From the NCBI RefSeq assembly GCF_036195045.1, contig NZ_CP108100.1, positions 124,001 through 188,000 on the forward strand: a DNA stretch of 64,000 nt, read 5' to 3'. Positions 45,141 to 53,857 of the stretch are shown here, piece by piece. This stretch comes from Streptomyces sp. NBC_00236 (lineage in GTDB: Bacteria > Actinomycetota > Actinomycetes > Streptomycetales > Streptomycetaceae). Under the pieces are notes generated by a model. It worked only from the letters and a program-made list of their open reading frames with translations, did no database searches and was not told where the DNA came from. Both the position numbers and the translations under genes were made by a program. The stretch's first letter is position 1. The number at the start of each line of letters is the position of its first letter.

Positions 45141-45155
45141 TGAAAATGATTATCA
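45141..45155 (+). promoter_or_regulatory. Zur box in front of the Opp/Nik-type importer operon
   Basis: TGAAAATGATTATCA matches 14 of 15 bases of the Streptomyces Zur motif TGAAAATGATTTTCA. It lies 59 bp upstream of the binding-protein start, and TACGGT at 45162-45167 could be the -10 element. Iron control by DmdR is less likely, because its sites look like TTAGGTTAGGCTAACC. Confidence 0.8.
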
Positions 45156-45213
45156 TCATGCTACGGTCGTCGCACGCTCAACCTTTGACCTGCCTTTTAC
45201 TCGGAGTGACCCC

Positions 45214-46701
45214 GTGCGCGTCCTGTCCCGCCCCCTGCTCTTCCCCGCGGTTCTCGCCGCCGCTGTCCTGCTCACCGGCTGCTTCGCGTCCACGGAAACC
45301 ACCGGCACCGGCTCGGGCGAGCGCCTCAGTGTCGCGATGATGCAGCCGCCCCGCTCGGGCTTGTCTCCGCTCTCCGACGACGCGTTCAAGCTGTCCCGTT
45401 GGTCCACGGCGGAAACACTCGTGAGACTGAACGCGGACGGCGACGCCGAGCCCGCTCTTGCCACCGGGTGGAAGCGGTCCGGTCGGAACTGGGCCTTCAC
45501 CCTCCGCAAGGACGTCACCTTCCACGACGGCACCGAGCTGACCGCCGAGGCCGTTGTCCGTTCCCTCACCAAGGCCACTGGCGCCTCCCCCAAGCCCCGC
45601 ATTCTCGACGGCGTCGAGCTGACCGTGAAGGAAGGGGACCCCGGCACCGTCATCGTCACGACCGCCGAGGAGGACCCGTTGGTCCCCCAGCGGCTCAGCT
45701 CCCCGCAGTTGTCGATCCTCGCGGCGAAGGCGTACGGAGGGAAGACGGTGAATCCGGTCGGTGCCGGCACCGGTCCCTTCGAGCTGATCAAGGTCAACGG
45801 CACCTCTTCCGCCGCCCTCGACCGCTACGACGACTACTGGGGCGGCACGGCCAAGGCTTCCGGCATCGACGTGACGTTCGTGCCCGACGGCACCGCCCGC
45901 GCCGCCGCCCTGCGCAGCGGCGAGGCCGACATCGTCGAGGCGGTCCCGGTCTCACAGGCCGCACTGCTGGACAAGGACCTGATCACCGAGGTCCCGATGC
46001 CGCGCACGAACACGCTGTACCTCAACACGGGGAAGGGCGCATTCAAGGACCCGGCGCTGCGGGCGGCGGCCCGCGAGGCGATCGACGCCGAATCGATCGT
46101 GAAGGGCGTGTACGAGGGGCGAGCCGACGTGGCCGAGGGGCTGCTCGGGCCCGCGCTGCCGTGGGCGGCCGACCTGCGCGAGCCGGCGCGCCGTGCGAAG
46201 TCGGGTGATCCGGCGGGCAAGAGCATCACCATCGGTACGTTCACCGACCGGGCGGAACTGCCCGAGGTGGCCGCCGCCCTGCAACAGCAGCTGCAGAAGG
46301 CGGGGTTCCGGGTGAAGCTGGAGGTCCGCGAGTACGCCAATATCGAGTCCGACGCTCTGGCGGGCGCGTTCGACGCGTTCATCCTCTCCCGGGCCACCGT
46401 CCTCGATTCCGGCGACCCGGCCGCGTACCTGTACAGCGACTTCGCCTCCGACGGTTCGTTCAACATCCCCCAGCTCGCCGATCCGGTCGTCGACAAAGCC
46501 CTGAGCAAGGCGGGCGCGACGCCGACAGGTGACGCCCGCCGCCGAGCCGTCGTCGATGCCGAGGCCGCCGTACTCGCCACCGACGCGGCCGTGCCGATGC
46601 TCCACGAGCGCGTGATCCAGGGCGACGCCGCCGACGTGGTCGGCGCGGCCCACGACCCGCGCGAGCGGGAGCTGGTCACGCTCGACACCCACGTCAAGTG
46701 A
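45214..46701 (+). CDS. Solute-binding lipoprotein, peptide/nickel (family 5) type
   Basis: A 495-residue lipoprotein with lipobox LLTGC (Cys23). SBP family 5 features are ETLVRLNADGDAEPALATGW, the WAFTLRKDVTFHDGTELTAEAVV segment, GTGPFELIKVN and NTLYLNTGKGAFKDPALR. Such proteins bind peptides, nickel complexes or metallophores. With a Zur box in front, the likely cargo is zinc or a zinc-chelator complex, as for Cnt importers; this is inference. GTG 45214 follows CGGAG. First of four overlapping importer genes. Confidence 0.9.
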   Translation: MRVLSRPLLFPAVLAAAVLLTGCFASTETTGTGSGERLSVAMMQPPRSGLSPLSDDAFKLSRWSTAETLVRLNADGDAEPALATGWKRSGRNWAFTLRKDVTFHDGTELTAEAVVRSLTKATGASPKPRILDGVELTVKEGDPGTVIVTTAEEDPLVPQRLSSPQLSILAAKAYGGKTVNPVGAGTGPFELIKVNGTSSAALDRYDDYWGGTAKASGIDVTFVPDGTARAAALRSGEADIVEAVPVSQAALLDKDLITEVPMPRTNTLYLNTGKGAFKDPALRAAAREAIDAESIVKGVYEGRADVAEGLLGPALPWAADLREPARRAKSGDPAGKSITIGTFTDRAELPEVAAALQQQLQKAGFRVKLEVREYANIESDALAGAFDAFILSRATVLDSGDPAAYLYSDFASDGSFNIPQLADPVVDKALSKAGATPTGDARRRAVVDAEAAVLATDAAVPMLHERVIQGDAADVVGAAHDPRERELVTLDTHVK

Positions 46702-48449
46702 GGTCGGCCACGGCGGGGGTGACCCGCGCTGTCTGCCTCGTCGCCGCACTGGCCGCCGTCGGTCTGCTGCCCTGGCTCTCCGGCCGGGACCCCGCCCTGA
46801 CGGTACTGCGCGCCCGGTCCGCCGAACAGGAGCCGACCGAGGAGGCCCTGTCCGCGATCCGCCGCGACCTCGGTCTGGACGCAGGACCGCTCTCCTTGCT
46901 CGGTGACTGGGCCGGCGGGCTGCTGCGCGGCGAATTCGGGACCTCCTGGGTGTCGGGGACGGACATCCTGCCGTCCGTCATCTCCGGCCTCCAGGTATCG
47001 CTGGGCCTGATGACCGCCGCGCTGGCGGTGGCGATGATGCTGGCTGTGGCCCTGGTGGCACCCGTTCTCGTGCGGGGCCGGGGGTCAGCCGGGGCGTTCG
47101 CCGCCATGGCCGCCGCCGTGCCGGAGTTCCTCCTGGCCACCGTGGCACTGCTGGTGTGCGGAGTATGGCTGGGGTGGCTGCCCACGTCCGGCTGGCAGGG
47201 GCCCGAGTACCTGGTGCTGCCCGCACTCGCGCTCGGTGTCCCCGCGGGCGGACTGCTCGGCCGGCTCGTCGCGGACGCGCTGCCCGCCGTACTGGACGAA
47301 CGATGGGTGGAGCTGTGGCAGGGAGCGGGAGTGAGCCGCAGCCGTGTCTCGGCGGCGGCCCTGCGTCGTGTACTGCCACCGCTGATACCGCAGTTCGGGA
47401 TGGTCGCCGTCGGGCTGACGGGTGGGGCGGTCGCGGTGGAAACCGTCTTCGCGGTACCCGGCATCGGACGTACCGCGCTGGGTGCGGCCAAGTCCCAGGA
47501 CCTGCCGCTGCTCCAGGGCGCCGTCCTCGCCCTGCTCGCCCTGGGCCTGGTCACCGGCGCGCTCGCCGCCCTCGTGCGACGCCGGCTGCTGGGTCCCGCC
47601 CTGCGTGATGCAGGGCTCTCGCTGCCACCGGCCCGCCCGGTCCGGGCGCACCCGGCGATCCCGGCTCTCCTCGGGATCCTGCTGCTGACCGCGATCGGCT
47701 GGGGCCTGCTCCGCGACCCGTACGCGGTGGACACCACGGCTCGGCTGGCCCCGCCCTCGTGGGCGAACCCGCTGGGCACCGATGGGCTCGGCCGCGACGT
47801 GCTGGCCCGGCTCGGCCACGGAGCCGCCTCAACAGTCGGCACGGCGGCGGCCGTGTGCCTGCTGAGCCTGATGGTCGCACTGGTCCTCGGCTTCCTCCCT
47901 GGCATCGCGACGGGCGCGGCCGACATCGCCAACGCGCTGCCACCGGTGATTGTCGGCATTCTGGTCGCCGCGGCGGCCGGTCCCGGCACCGGCGGAGCGG
48001 CCCTCGCGGTCGCGCTGATCTCCTGGCCGCCCCTGGCGGCGCATGCGGCGGCGCTGGTCCAGGAGGTACGGGCGTCTGCGTTCCTGACCGCCCAGCGCGC
48101 CATAGGCGCACCGCCGTTGTGGATTCTCACCCGGCACGTCCTGCCGTCCGTCGCCGCCCCGGTCACCCGCCACGCCCTGCTGCGGCTGCCCGGCATCGCG
48201 CTCGCGCTGGCCTCCCTGGGGTTCCTCGGTCTCGGCGCCCAGCCACCCGCCCCCGAGTGGGGTCTGCTCCTCGACGAGTCCCGCGCCTACGTGGAACGCG
48301 CCCCCTGGGCGGCCCTCGCCCCGGCCACCGCGCTGGCCCTCCTGGCAGGACTGGCCGTGTCGGGTGCGGCGTACGCGCAGGGCCGGGGAGACCGGCGCAC
48401 GACCAGGCGCTCGGTACGGAAACGGAAGGAGACCGCCCATGCGGTCTGA
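46698..48449 (+). CDS. Fused double permease of the Opp/Nik-type importer
   Basis: A 583-residue protein that joins the two permeases normally encoded separately (DppB- and DppC-like). The first half (about 1-300) has RRDLGLDAGPLSLLGDW, GEFGTSWVSG and the coupling loop WQGAGVSRSRVSAAALRRVLPP. The second half has the DppC mark NPLGTDGLGRDVLARL and the loop AIGAPPLWILTRHVLPSV. About ten to twelve membrane helices are expected. The GTG start overlaps the preceding stop by four bases (GTGA). The fused arrangement is unusual. Confidence 0.9.
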   Translation: MRSATAGVTRAVCLVAALAAVGLLPWLSGRDPALTVLRARSAEQEPTEEALSAIRRDLGLDAGPLSLLGDWAGGLLRGEFGTSWVSGTDILPSVISGLQVSLGLMTAALAVAMMLAVALVAPVLVRGRGSAGAFAAMAAAVPEFLLATVALLVCGVWLGWLPTSGWQGPEYLVLPALALGVPAGGLLGRLVADALPAVLDERWVELWQGAGVSRSRVSAAALRRVLPPLIPQFGMVAVGLTGGAVAVETVFAVPGIGRTALGAAKSQDLPLLQGAVLALLALGLVTGALAALVRRRLLGPALRDAGLSLPPARPVRAHPAIPALLGILLLTAIGWGLLRDPYAVDTTARLAPPSWANPLGTDGLGRDVLARLGHGAASTVGTAAAVCLLSLMVALVLGFLPGIATGAADIANALPPVIVGILVAAAAGPGTGGAALAVALISWPPLAAHAAALVQEVRASAFLTAQRAIGAPPLWILTRHVLPSVAAPVTRHALLRLPGIALALASLGFLGLGAQPPAPEWGLLLDESRAYVERAPWAALAPATALALLAGLAVSGAAYAQGRGDRRTTRRSVRKRKETAHAV

Positions 48450-49398
48450 AGCACTGCTGTCGGTACATGACCTGCGGATCGCGTTCGGCGCGGTCGAGGC
48501 GGTGCGCGGACTGACCTTCGACGTCCGCCCGCGCGAGGTGTTCGCCCTCGTCGGGGAGTCCGGCGCGGGCAAGTCCCTCACCGCCCGGGCGCTGCTCGGC
48601 ATGGTGCCGCGCGGCGCGACCGTCGGCGGCAGCGTGCGGTTGCGTGACTCCGCAGATCTCGTCGCCGAGCGCGGGCGCCGGATCACCCTCGTCCCTCAGG
48701 ACGCCCTGTCCGCTCTCTCCCCCGTCCACCCGGTCGGCGACCAGATCGCCGCGGCCGTGCGGTCGGTGCGGCACGTGTCCCGCAGACAGGCTCGCGCCCG
48801 GGCGGTGACGGCACTGGACCGGGTCGGCATCCCGGACGCCGCGCGCCGGGCAAGGGCCTACCCTCACGAGTACTCGGGCGGCATGCGTCAGCGTGCGGTG
48901 ATCGCCATGGCAACGGTCAACGAGCCCGACATCGTCGTCGCCGACGAGCCGACCACCGCGCTGGACGAGGAGCGCCGCGAGCAGGTGCTGCGGGTGCTCG
49001 CCGAACAGCGGGAAGCGGTCGGCGCCGCGCTGGTCCTCGTCACCCACGACCTGGACGTCGTACGGGACCACGCGGACCGCATGCTGGTGATGTACGCAGG
49101 GCGGGCGACCGAGCTCGGCCCGGTTCGGCAGGTCCTGAGCCGTCCGCGCGCCCCGTACACAGCGGGCCTGCTGGCCTCGCTCCCGCAGGACGGCCCCCGG
49201 CGCCGCAAGCTGCCGGCGCTCCGCGGCACCCCACCCGCACCGGACGCCCTCGGGCCGGGCTGCGCCTTCGCCCCACGCTGCCCACTGGCGACGGACCCGT
49301 GCCACGACCGCGAACCAGACGTCCAGGCCATGGACGGACACCTGGTCGCCTGCCACCACGCCGCCGACGTGCCCGACCCCATTCGGAAGTTCGTATGA
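48439..49398 (+). CDS. ABC transporter ATPase, DppD/NikD-like
   Basis: A 319-residue ATPase: Walker A GESGAGKSLTA, signature YSGGMRQRAVIAMA, Walker B DIVVADEPTTALD, and H-loop VTHDLD. The C-terminal oligopeptide-transporter extension has its cysteine set (GCAFAPRCPLATDPC and VACHH), which in relatives can hold an iron-sulfur cluster. ATG 48439 overlaps the permease gene by 11 bp and has GGAAGGAG upstream. It pairs with the next ATPase to drive the importer. Confidence 0.93.
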   Translation: MRSEALLSVHDLRIAFGAVEAVRGLTFDVRPREVFALVGESGAGKSLTARALLGMVPRGATVGGSVRLRDSADLVAERGRRITLVPQDALSALSPVHPVGDQIAAAVRSVRHVSRRQARARAVTALDRVGIPDAARRARAYPHEYSGGMRQRAVIAMATVNEPDIVVADEPTTALDEERREQVLRVLAEQREAVGAALVLVTHDLDVVRDHADRMLVMYAGRATELGPVRQVLSRPRAPYTAGLLASLPQDGPRRRKLPALRGTPPAPDALGPGCAFAPRCPLATDPCHDREPDVQAMDGHLVACHHAADVPDPIRKFV

Positions 49399-50075
49399 AC
49401 CACCCCCTGCTGGACGTCCGCGACCTCGTCGTCCGCTACGGCCCGGTCACCGCCGTGGACCATGTCTCGTTCGCACTGGACGCCGGTGAGACCCTCGCCC
49501 TCAACGGCCCCTCCGGATGCGGTAAATCCTCCACCGCCCTCGCGGTGCTCCGGCTACGCCCGCCTGACGCCGGGCAGATCCGCTTCGAAGGACGGGAGCT
49601 GACCCACCTGACGGAACGCGAACTGCGTCCGCTACGCCCACGCATGCAGCCGGTCTTCCAGGACCCCTACGGCTCCCTCAGCCCCCGTCGCCGCATCCGC
49701 GACGCGGTGGCCGAGCCACTGAAGGTGCACGGCACATGGGACCCGGCCGACGGGCCCGCCCGCGTGGCCGAGCTGCTCGACCGCGTCGGCCTCGACCCGT
49801 CGTCCGGGGACCGGCGACCCCACGAACTCTCCGGCGGCCAGTGCCAGCGGGCCGGCATCGCCCGCGCCCTCGCCTCCGGACCGCGGCTGCTCGTCCTCGA
49901 CGAACCGGTGTCGGCCCTCGACGCTTCCGTCAGGGCCGGCGTGTTGAACCTGCTCGCCGACCTCCAGGACGAACTGGGCCTCGGCTACCTGTTCATCTGC
50001 CACGACCGGGCCGTCGTACGGCACTTCGCTGACCGCGTGATCGAGATGCGGGACGGACGCATCGTCCCCACCTGA
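49395..50075 (+). CDS. ABC transporter ATPase, DppF/NikE-like
   Basis: A 226-residue ATPase: Walker A GPSGCGKSSTA, Q-loop VFQDPYGSLSPRRRIRD, signature LSGGQCQRAGIARAL, Walker B LLVLDEPVSALD, H-loop ICHDRAVV. It is short and ends soon after the core fold, without the oligopeptide C-terminal extension, as NikE-like partners do. Its ATG overlaps the preceding stop (ATGA at 49395-49398). Last intact gene of the importer operon. The 205 bp after it hold no gene. Confidence 0.93.
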   Translation: MNHPLLDVRDLVVRYGPVTAVDHVSFALDAGETLALNGPSGCGKSSTALAVLRLRPPDAGQIRFEGRELTHLTERELRPLRPRMQPVFQDPYGSLSPRRRIRDAVAEPLKVHGTWDPADGPARVAELLDRVGLDPSSGDRRPHELSGGQCQRAGIARALASGPRLLVLDEPVSALDASVRAGVLNLLADLQDELGLGYLFICHDRAVVRHFADRVIEMRDGRIVPT

Positions 50076-50280: not shown

Positions 50281-50420
50281 TGAGCAAGCGGAAGGCCCAG
50301 GTCCGGGCCGGCGTCGATGCCGGTAGAGGCCACCACTGGGCGGCCGTCGCCGATGAGACCGGCGCAACCCTGTCCTCGAAGTAGGCGACAACGAGGAGTC
50401 GGCGATCCTGGGCGCGCTCG
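50281..50420 (+). pseudogene. IS110-family transposase remnant (N-terminus only)
   Basis: From GTG 50281 the product begins like an IS110 transposase: VRAGVDAGRGHHWAAVADETG, with the first acidic residue of the RuvC-like site, split here for length. A one-base loss before 50386 creates a stop; the next frame continues DNEESAILGALGE, the expected following segment. After about 45 residues the similarity ends at the junction with the CobW remnant. The rest of the transposase is gone. Confidence 0.72.
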
Positions 50421-51008
50421 GTGAGAGCCGCCCTCACCCGCCTCAATCCGGTAGCCCGGATCGTGCCCGTCAGCCGAGGCCGCGCGGAACTGTCCGAGGT
50501 ACTCGGCACCGGGCTCTTCGACCTGGAACGGGCCCATCAGGCTCCGGGATGGGTGCGGGAGCTGAACGGGGACCACGTGCCGGAGACCGAGGAGTACGGC
50601 ATCTCCAGCACGGTCTTCCGCTCGGACCTGCCCTTCCATTCCGAGCGCCTGTGGACATTCGTCACCGACAAGCTCGGCGCGGCCGGTACGGGCAGGTTCT
50701 GCGCTCCAAGGGCTTCTTCTGGCCGGCCGGCCGGCCGGCCGCATGTGACCGGACTCTGGTCGCAGGCGGGCTCCGTGGCCCGCTTCGAGCCGTCCGGCGC
50801 TCGCGACGCCGGCACCACACAGGGCCAGGAACTGGTCTTCATCGGCACAGCTCTACGCGCGGAAATCCTCCACGAAGAGTTGTCCGCATGCCTGATGTCC
50901 GTGGGCGAGGCGCGGCCAGCGGCCGATCCCTTCCCCGACTGGGACACGTACGGGATCGGCGACGCGTGTGAGCACGTGCACCTGGACACTGTGGCAGCGC
51001 ACCCCTGA
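50421..51008 (+). pseudogene. CobW-family GTPase, truncated C-terminal remnant
   Basis: About 195 residues match the C-terminal half of CobW/ZNG1-type zinc-metallochaperone GTPases: LNPVARIVPVSRGRAELSEVL, then FDLERA, GISSTVFRSDLPFHSERLW, and a histidine-rich end. The GTPase domain is missing and is replaced by the IS110 remnant. Near 50700 one base is lost (aggttctgcgct) and after 50732 one CCGG unit is gained, so two frameshifts cancel and the frame resumes at RPHVTGLWSQAG. It once probably delivered zinc in this regulon. Confidence 0.75.
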
Positions 51009-51345: not shown

Positions 51346-51651
51346 TCACCAGGAGGACTTGGTCACTCCGGGAAGAAATCCTGCGTGCGCCTGTTCGCGC
51401 ATCCGGACCCGCGACAGTCCGAACTTCCGAAGGTGACCACGTGGACGGCCGTCCACACTGTCCCGGTTACGCACCCGGGTCGCACTGGCGTTGCGCGGCT
51501 GGCGGCGCAGCTCCTCGACGGCTGCGAGTCGCTCGGCCTCCGGGGTACCGGGCTTGCGGATGATCTCCTTCAACTCCGCGCGCCGCGCGGCATACCGCTC
51601 GACGGTCACCTTGCGCTTCTCGTTCTGCGCGATCTTGCTCTGCTTGGCCAT
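51346..51651 (-). CDS. rpsN: 30S ribosomal protein S14 (zinc-independent form)
   Basis: A 101-residue S14 of the long type: [28 protein letters not shown] and the end [19 protein letters not shown]. It lacks the CxxC pairs of the short zinc-binding S14, so it can replace that form during zinc limitation. Its ATG shares one base with the L28 stop (TGATG), so the two are translationally coupled and driven from the divergent promoter near 51930. Confidence 0.96.
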
Positions 51652-51887
51652 CAGACCTTCACTCCCCGCGCCCGGATGCGGGCGACCGCCGCCTCGATGC
51701 CGATGGTGTCGATCACCTTGATCGCCCGGGCACTCAGCACCAGGCGCACGTGACGGCCTTCGCCGGGTAGCCAGTAGCGCTTGCGCTGGATGTTCGGGTC
51801 GAACCGGCGCGACGTGCGCCGGTGCGAGTGGGAGATCTTGTTGCCGAAGCCCGGTTGCGCACCGGTCAGTTGGCAGTGGGCGGACAC
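51651..51887 (-). CDS. rpmB: 50S ribosomal protein L28 (zinc-independent form)
   Basis: A 78-residue L28: [25 protein letters not shown], split in two stretches, then [13 protein letters not shown] and [14 protein letters not shown]. The second cysteine of the usual CxxCG zinc motif is absent (CQLTG), so it is the cysteine-poor paralogue. GTG start at 51887, with GAGGCAGG about eight bases upstream. First gene of the minus-strand unit with S14, divergent from L33. Confidence 0.95.
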
Positions 51888-51921
51888 GTAGTTACCTGCC
51901 TCTCATTGACTCGGCCCCATA

Positions 51922-51955
51922 TTGAACATGGAAACCATTGCCATATAGTAGCGCC
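51922..51955 (+). promoter_or_regulatory. Zur-overlapped promoter of the L33-L31-CobW-S18 operon, probably leaderless
   Basis: TTGAAC at 51922-51927 and TATAGT at 51944-51949 are spaced by 16 bp. The Zur-like palindrome TGGAAACCATTGCCA fills the gap (51929-51943). Transcription would start about seven bases after TATAGT, right at the L33 ATG (51956), so the mRNA is probably leaderless; no ribosome site precedes the ATG. The palindrome can also repress the divergent L28-S14 unit. Confidence 0.72.
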
Positions 51956-52120
51956 ATGGCTCGCAACGAAATACGTCCGATCATCAAGCTCCGCTCCACC
52001 GCGGGGACGGGCTACACCTACGTCACCCGCAAGAACCGGCGGAACAACCCCGACCGGCTGGTACTGCGGAAGTTCGACCCGCTCGTCCGCCGCCACGTCG
52101 ACTTCCGCGAAGAGCGCTGA
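51956..52120 (+). CDS. rpmG: 50S ribosomal protein L33 (cysteine-free paralogue)
   Basis: A 54-residue L33: [19 protein letters not shown], split here, then [14 protein letters not shown] and HVDFREER. It has no cysteines. ATG 51956 is supported by alignment with the other L33 (both MAR-E-RP) and by the promoter, which would place the transcript start at or beside it. First gene of the plus-strand operon. Confidence 0.96.
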
Positions 52121-52169
52121 CACCGCGGCTCCCCGCTCGACACCACCCCCGATCCCCTAGGAGACCGCC

Positions 52170-52424
52170 ATGAAGCCCGGAATTCACCCCGACTACCGCC
52201 CCGTCGTCTTCCGCGACAAGGCCGCCGACTTCGCCTTCCTGACCCGCTCCACCCTGACCAGCGACCGGACCGTCGAGTGGGAGGACGGCAACACCTACCC
52301 CGTCGTGGACGTGGAGATCTCCTCCGCGAGCCACCCCTTCTACACCGGGACCGCGCGCGTTCTGGACACCGCAGGCCGCGTCGAGCGCTTCGAGCGCCGC
52401 TACGGCCGTCGTGAGGGCCGGTGA
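52170..52424 (+). CDS. rpmE: 50S ribosomal protein L31 type B (zinc-independent)
   Basis: An 84-residue type-B L31: [35 protein letters not shown] and [11 protein letters not shown]. No cysteines. AGGAG sits about seven bases before ATG 52170. Its stop shares a base with the ATG of the CobW-like gene (TGATG), which couples them. The copy at 1759-2022 is a clear paralogue. Confidence 0.96.
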
Positions 52425-53578
52425 TGGAGGCCAAGCACGAGCTCTCCGTCGTCATCGTCAGCGGGCTCCACTCGGACGCACGCCACCATGTCGTGGAGGG
52501 GCTGCTGAAGGACGTGCCTCACAGCGTCGCACTGCACCACGACCTGGGCACTGCGGAGAAGGGCACGGTGTACCGGACCGTACGTGACACCTCCGGGACG
52601 CTCTCCAGCGGCGAGGCCCCCTTGGTGAACGACTGCGCCTGTTGCGCCCTGCGCGAGGACCTGATGCCGGAACTGGAGCGCCTTGCGGCCGACAGCGTGA
52701 CCAAGATGGCCGTCCTCGAACTGTGGGACTCCGTCGAGCCCCGGGCGATGGCCGAGGTCATCACCGCGCACGGCGAGGGCGTGGTCGAAGTGACCGGCGT
52801 GATCACCGCCGTCGATCCCGCCCTCGTGCTGCCCTACCTCGTCAACGGCGACGACCTTGCCGAAGCCGGCCTGGCAGCCGCGGCCACCGACCAGCGGACC
52901 GTCGGCGACACCTGGGCCAGGCAACTCGAATACGCCTCCGTCATCGCCCTCGTGGAAAACACCGAGGCGGACGACGAGGACCGGGCGCTGATCGGCCAGT
53001 TGCACCCGACCGCCCCTCAGGCGGCAGCCGGCTCACCCGAGCTGGTGAAGCTGGCTCTCGCAGGGTTCGATGTGGAAGCTGCCGGTGCCGGCCAGCATCC
53101 CGCCTGCGCCCTGCTGCCCCAGGATGCCGAGGAGGCCGGCGTCAGCACTCTCGTCTGGCGCAAGCACCGCCCGTTCCATCCTGAGCGCCTCTACGACGCG
53201 CTGGAGGACCTGAGTTGCGCAGCGGCCCGCAGCCGTGGCAGGTTCTGGCTCGCCGACCGGCCCGACACCCTGCTGTCCTGGGACGCGGCGGGCGGCGCTC
53301 TCTGCGTCGAGAACAACGGTCCCTGGCTCGCGTCCCTCCCGGACGCCGCCTGGGACATGATCCCGCCGGTCCGGCGGGCCGCCGCCGCACTGGACTGGCA
53401 CCCCGAGCACGGTGACTGCTGCCAGCACCTGGTCTTCATCTCGCCCGGTCTCGACCGGGACGGGCTGACCGCTCTGCTCGATTCCTGCCTGCTGACCGAC
53501 GACGAGTACGAAGCAGGCCGCACGGCATGGAAGAACCTGCCCGCCGCGTTCGATGCACTCCTCGACCCGGTTCACTGA
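52424..53578 (+). CDS. CobW-like protein lacking a P-loop
   Basis: A 384-residue CobW/COG0523-like protein. The metal-binding CxCC motif is intact (NDCACCALRED, cysteines about 71, 73, 74), and a CobW C-terminal domain is visible (VWRKHRPFHPERLYDAL, RFWLADRP, HLVFISPGLDRDGL). The nucleotide site is lost: Walker A GxxGxGKT is replaced by VSGLHSDARHH, and the NKxD position reads VENTEADD. It may store or hand over metal without GTP hydrolysis. ATG 52424 or GTG 52421 could start it. Confidence 0.85.
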   Translation: MEAKHELSVVIVSGLHSDARHHVVEGLLKDVPHSVALHHDLGTAEKGTVYRTVRDTSGTLSSGEAPLVNDCACCALREDLMPELERLAADSVTKMAVLELWDSVEPRAMAEVITAHGEGVVEVTGVITAVDPALVLPYLVNGDDLAEAGLAAAATDQRTVGDTWARQLEYASVIALVENTEADDEDRALIGQLHPTAPQAAAGSPELVKLALAGFDVEAAGAGQHPACALLPQDAEEAGVSTLVWRKHRPFHPERLYDALEDLSCAAARSRGRFWLADRPDTLLSWDAAGGALCVENNGPWLASLPDAAWDMIPPVRRAAAALDWHPEHGDCCQHLVFISPGLDRDGLTALLDSCLLTDDEYEAGRTAWKNLPAAFDALLDPVH

Positions 53579-53614
53579 CCGCCCCTCACACCCTCGCACC
53601 CGTAAGGAAGACCG

Positions 53615-53857
53615 ATGGCTCGACGCCAGGAAGCCCGTAAGCCGGCGAAGGACCGCCCGAACCCTCTCGACGCGGCCAAGATCACCTACATCGACTACAA
53701 GGACATCGATCTGCTGCGGAAGTTCATCTCCGACCGGGGGAAGATCCGCAGCCGCAGGGTCACCCGGATCAGTGCCCAGCAACAGCGGCAGGTCACCACT
53801 GCGATCAAGAACGCACGCGAGATGGCACTGCTGCCGTACACCGGTTCCGGCAAGTGA
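53615..53857 (+). CDS. rpsR: 30S ribosomal protein S18 (zinc-independent form)
   Basis: An 80-residue S18: [38 protein letters not shown] and [16 protein letters not shown]. The N-terminal cysteines of zinc-type S18 are absent. It begins 36 bp after the CobW-like gene and closes the operon. The following 214 bp to the LacI gene hold no recognised feature. Confidence 0.96.

Follow-up and report, generated by a model that had tools for sequence, protein, structure and literature searches.

A Zur-boxed importer of the peptide/nickel class in Streptomyces sp. NBC_00236, with a zinc chelate as its likely cargo

We analysed a stretch of 64,000 nucleotides from the 8.33 Mb chromosome of Streptomyces sp. 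NBC_00236 (contig NZ_CP108100.1, bases 124001-188000; hereafter the window), in which four genes for an importer follow a predicted binding site for the regulator Zur. Positions are those of the window unless the chromosome is named, and the genome-wide scan for such boxes covered the whole chromosome. The box and the operon are as follows.

45141..45155, + strand: Zur box TGAAAATGATTATCA, found by motif scan; overlaps a -35-like region, binding by Zur predicted
45214..46701, + strand: substrate-binding lipoprotein, SBP_bac_5 (PF00496), 495 amino acids, lipobox LLTGC with Cys23
46698..48449, + strand: fused permease, NikB-like then NikC-like half (two BPD_transp_1 stretches), 583 amino acids
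48439..49398, + strand: ATPase 1, with an oligo_HPY tail; Walker A, signature and Walker B all present
49395..50075, + strand: ATPase 2; Walker A, signature and Walker B all present

The four genes (45214-50075) overlap end to start throughout, the permease gene running into the binding-protein gene upstream of it, and none has an internal stop. An SBP_bac_5 protein, two BPD_transp_1 halves and two ABC_tran ATPases in one operon make up a cluster C (peptide/nickel) ATP-binding cassette (ABC) importer. A preliminary description of this DNA had likened the operon to peptide/nickel importers; its account of the gene content stands, except that a single permease gene holds both halves. The lipoprotein did not test as a TroA/ZnuA-type binding protein, matching PF00496 alone at E ≤ 0.001, and no gene for an exporter of the major facilitator superfamily (MFS) was found in the window operon.

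The same description had claimed a match of 14 of 15 bases to the Zur motif ahead of the binding-protein gene, and this was confirmed by the scan, by shuffling and by chromosome counts. TGAAAATGATTATCA is identical to TGAAAATGATTTTCA at 14 of 15 bases, and in 100 dinucleotide-shuffled versions of the window TGAAAATGATTTTCA found no match, even with 3 mismatches allowed. The stretch 45141-45155 also agrees with the Zur motif tGaNNatSatNNtCa, printed in PMC5472717 from chromatin immunoprecipitation on microarrays, at each of its 11 fixed positions, and was the sole place in the window to match the 21-bp actinobacterial motif taaTGaNAANNNTTNtCANta at up to 4 mismatches. Over the chromosome, TGAAAATGATTTTCA was found at 2 places with at most 1 mismatch and at 3 places with at most 2, for expected numbers from base composition of 0.005 and 0.18, respectively. 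With up to 3 mismatches allowed, the real pattern occurs 10 + 9 times in the chromosome and a reversed control pattern 2 + 2 times. The three best boxes precede the binding-protein gene of the window, a 55%-identical paralogue (box at 4557068) and znuA (box at 2457066), the latter having an additional box with 3 mismatches at 2457044. A -10-like TACGGT lies at 45162-45167, so that the box would cover the -35 region and the spacer of the predicted promoter. Downstream of the box, TGCTACGGTC is common to 30 aligned loci, each base being kept in 26-28 of the 30.

The box is conserved in relatives. A homologue of the binding protein was found at E ≤ 1e-80 in 131 of 295 Streptomyces genomes, and a close orthologue (at least 74% identity) in 48. 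A box was present upstream of the gene in all 48, with at most 2 mismatches in 46 (30 + 13 boxes at up to 2 mismatches, and the remaining five at 2, 2, 2, 3 and 4). We also retrieved 79 labelled actinobacterial loci, of which the 34 orthologous-looking ones were gene-called (L238, L239 and L241-L283 were left out); some of these contigs also belong to the 48 Streptomyces genomes. Of the 34, 27 have a box before the operon at up to 4 mismatches and 24 at up to 3, while L225-L228 and L235-L237 had no site at up to 4. The boxed loci include those of Nocardiopsis, Saccharothrix, Glycomyces, Arthrobacter oryzae (4 mismatches), Actinomyces (two boxes) and Microbacterium, whose box is the perfect 7-1-7 palindrome TGATAATCATTATCA. 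A phylum-wide draw of 396 genomes from 236 genera gave a match at E ≤ 1e-50 in 12 genomes, belonging to 7 genera; among its more distant loci, L078 and L079 have sites with 4 mismatches before the first ATPase gene, and L080-L083 have no site at up to 3 mismatches. Outside Streptomyces, two ATPases, an MFS protein, the binding protein and the fused permease are often encoded together, though not always in the same order. Of the 34 labelled loci, 13 have an MFS gene next to the operon; in L230 it is divergent. By its conserved promoter box, the operon is a predicted member of the Zur regulon.

The paralogue with the equally good box belongs to a second operon, which we call class B.

4556477-4562010 of the chromosome (L046:6477-12010), box at 4557068: class B operon, a second Zur-boxed importer; in order GNAT, box, binding protein, fused permease, MFS, PPOX gene

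This operon, situated between ispF and cysS (both named by eye), holds an MdtH-like MFS gene behind its box, and no ATPase gene. At this position a box at up to 3 mismatches was found in 9 of 9 loci. Of 27 further homologues located elsewhere, 17 had a box at up to 2 mismatches and 19 at up to 3. The EAA-like coupling loops are kept in both permease classes (37 rows, judged by eye), and class B should therefore need ATPases from elsewhere. Sharing those of the window operon was considered and rejected: no close orthologue of ATPase 1 was found in 13 apparently class-B-only genomes (best 45-55% identity). Five loci around some of the better ATPase candidates contain other Opp-type systems, with no box at up to 3 mismatches. 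Box conservation and this second operon together give strong support to the earlier suggestion of Zur control over an Opp/Nik-class importer, and Zur control of a zinc-related importer is, on sequence grounds, very likely.

We propose that the locus probably encodes a Zur-repressed, zinc-starvation importer of zinc complexed to a small organic ligand. With zinc in plentiful supply, zinc-loaded Zur would occupy 45141-45155, over the -35 region and spacer, and block transcription; at low zinc the four-gene operon would be expressed. The lipoprotein would then capture zinc already bound by the ligand, and the fused permease with its two ATPases would bring the complex inside. Import of zinc in such a carrier is suggested by the conservation of the zinc-starvation switch in relatives. 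Capture of a complex rather than of the bare ion is suggested by the transporter class and by the mature protein, whose only cysteine is that of the lipobox (it has four histidines). The MdtH-like MFS protein adjoining the operon in some relatives may export or recycle the ligand. Neighbours of the zinc type like those of the window (see below) were seen in 6 of 74 other gene-called loci, paralogues included (L048, L055, L057, L079, L205 and L214), which softens the evidence from neighbours. Other paralogue loci are mixed, with a box at up to 3 mismatches near the operon in 5 of 12 (L084-L095) and none in L050, L062, L063 and L065.

We then compared the lipoprotein with proteins of known cargo. 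It scored 199.5 bits against the Opp5A/NikA profile NF045468 (cut-off 600) and 63.2 bits against the CntA profile NF047575 (cut-off 800), and is thus nearer to NikA than to CntA while reaching neither cut-off. A sequence search of solved structures ranked a nickel-binding protein of Bacillus halodurans first. The AlphaFold model (mean predicted local distance difference test score 89.1, predicted template-modelling score 0.84) aligned best with Staphylococcus aureus NikA holding a nickel-histidine chelate, another family-5 protein being tied within 1 Z; with its top matches tied, the fold search was discarded as a test of cargo. No CntA chain was among the best 50 matches listed in either fold search. 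The NikA-like fold of the model fits a metal-chelate binder, short of proof, and the cargo is likely to be a zinc chelate. The staphylopine-type Cnt importers had been offered as a precedent for a zincophore cargo; the importer class is shared, but the CntA cut-off was not reached and the cargo stays conjectural. An opine pathway was dropped as cargo source, the CntM-type dehydrogenase (PF10100) being found in 0 of 295 Streptomyces genomes in a search whose control was also silent (0 of 14).

The chelate could be a dedicated zincophore, exported or recycled by the MFS protein and made by a ten-gene operon of the same chromosome or else acquired from neighbouring organisms. This bolder form of our proposal is possible, at somewhat less than even chances.

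7999736-8011232 of the chromosome: ten-gene operon, with a box of 3 mismatches at 7999620 (L133, L134)

It encodes an L-amino-acid ligase of the ATP-grasp type, a DUF364 protein (putative heavy-metal chelation), an SbnA-like enzyme, an epimerase, an MFS protein, a methyltransferase and an Opp-type importer, and looks like a candidate non-opine zincophore pathway. Its first gene, that of the ligase, was found at ≥67% identity in 69 of 295 Streptomyces genomes. In all 30 best-scoring of these 69 loci a Zur-like site lies upstream, with 2-4 mismatches and always G as last base. The gene order is intact in 13 of 16 fetched loci; L285 and L290 are truncated where their contigs end, and the genes that follow the binding-protein gene went unrecognised in L284. 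The MFS protein is 36% identical to that of class B. Of the 48 genomes that have the window importer, 24 also carry the ten-gene operon, compared with 45 of the remaining 247 (Fisher p 9e-6, with no correction for kinship). However, it is missing from the other 24 of the 48, and its own binding protein is only 26% like that of the window. Since it brings its own importer, there is no clear case for it as the source of what the window importer carries. The preliminary description had suggested a Streptomyces zincophore made elsewhere, and these results provide a candidate pathway of that kind with the same reservations.

The placement of an SbnA-MFS gene pair next to the importer in S. marokkonensis (L214) was likewise dropped as proof of a link to biosynthesis. 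Among the matches listed it was not repeated in 26 tabulated importer genomes, where the pair was unlinked to the importer: it lay on the same contig in 12 (at least 162 kb away) and on different contigs in 14. A two-gene unit of this kind, related to the SbnA and MFS genes of the ten-gene operon, was present in ten fetched Streptomyces loci (L304-L313), none of which has a box at up to 3 mismatches. In L292 a bL28 paralogue directly follows the ten-gene operon. In L297 (G257 contig 9) a GNAT gene whose product is 57% identical to that of class B is divergent to it, and a P-type ATPase-like gene lies downstream.

A wider scheme would be a two-way zincophore shuttle in actinobacteria, in which a Zur-controlled, fused NikBC-type importer works with an MdtH-like exporter on non-opine zincophores, such as a diaminopropionate-type product of the ten-gene operon, class B borrowing its ATPases; this we consider unlikely. 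Somewhat better, though still doubtful, is the reading that the cargo is zinc on common metabolites, for instance zinc-histidine, as in NikA-type proteins. The nearest profiles and structures are of the NikA type, binders of nickel-histidine chelates among them, and no synthase gene was seen to recur next to the operon across the 34 labelled loci when these were set against a reference set. Against it, the scores fall far under the NikA cut-off and a free metabolite has no obvious need for an MFS efflux partner. It is improbable that an ordinary peptide importer was drafted into the zinc-starvation response for salvage: fold and class are shared with Dpp, Opp and GsiB, but the box is kept across genera, and a first look gave 45 candidate places for such a protein in the genome, while boxes at up to 2 mismatches mark just two of the class, plus znuA. 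That the operon imports nickel under control of the nickel regulator Nur is very improbable: despite the NikA-like family and four FUR-family genes in the genome, 45080-45213 contains neither half-site of the Nur motif (TGCAA or TTGCA), yet includes a full Zur motif. The odds that we give to these readings follow from the footprint of the box in 48 genomes.

To our knowledge, uptake of zinc complexes in Streptomyces and its relatives is not settled. Titles and abstract openings in a mostly open-access literature showed nothing that we recognised on the window operon or the ten-gene operon. A Zur-regulated cluster C ABC transporter with a COG0523 gene in its operon is already known from Paracoccus denitrificans (Pden1338-1344), according to the part of PMC5387054 drawn on here. 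It resembles the window operon in transporter class, Zur control, COG0523 gene and unassigned cargo. It differs in being alphaproteobacterial, and that part of the paper mentions neither a fused permease nor an MFS partner; the comparison is one of descriptions. With the staphylopine and bacillopaline Cnt systems, as presented in the part of PMC7438024 used here, the window system shares an Opp-type importer, an MFS partner in some relatives and a proposed role in zinc starvation; unlike in those, no biosynthesis genes were seen beside the operon. NikA/Opp5A (NF045468; PDB 3t66, 4xkr) gave the best profile, sequence and fold matches of the lipoprotein, whereas the window operon has a fused permease and a Zur box. 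Box and regulator are shared with the Streptomyces Zur regulon of znuABC and coelibactin (PMC5472717, in part), although znuABC is of another transporter class; in the sections concerned, coelibactin is described as a zincophore from another gene cluster (PMC5472717) and as a predicted zincophore (PMC3430247). The Zur-boxed importer, retained in several actinobacterial genera and at times paired with an exporter, provides a defined protein for capturing the ligand, and the conserved ten-gene operon provides a candidate pathway to examine alongside it.

Downstream of the operon, the window contains the following.

50421..51008, + strand: COG0523 GTPase remnant, C-terminal part only, decayed
51346..53857: spare ribosomal-protein genes, bS14 and bL28 on the - strand, bL33, bL31 and bS18 on the + strand
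52424-53578: MRF/ZigA-like COG0523 gene, among the spare ribosomal-protein genes

In S. marokkonensis (L214) the orthologous operon has an intact COG0523 gene next to it, and the remnant matches residues 198-380 of that gene's product at 59% identity. A transposase-like start near 50281 is an unconfirmed reading by eye. Zinc-independent ribosomal-protein genes had been placed next to the operon; spare genes do lie about 1.3 kb downstream, with the remnant between, and are presumably of the zinc-independent type. They were named by eye rather than by family search, as were P-type ATPase and ArsR neighbours. The bL28 paralogue of the window has one cysteine near its start. Between the bL28 and bL33 paralogue genes, a weak Zur-like site at 51929-51943 has 4 mismatches, and 2 in the relative L055; judged from these letters, its control by Zur may be weak in this strain.
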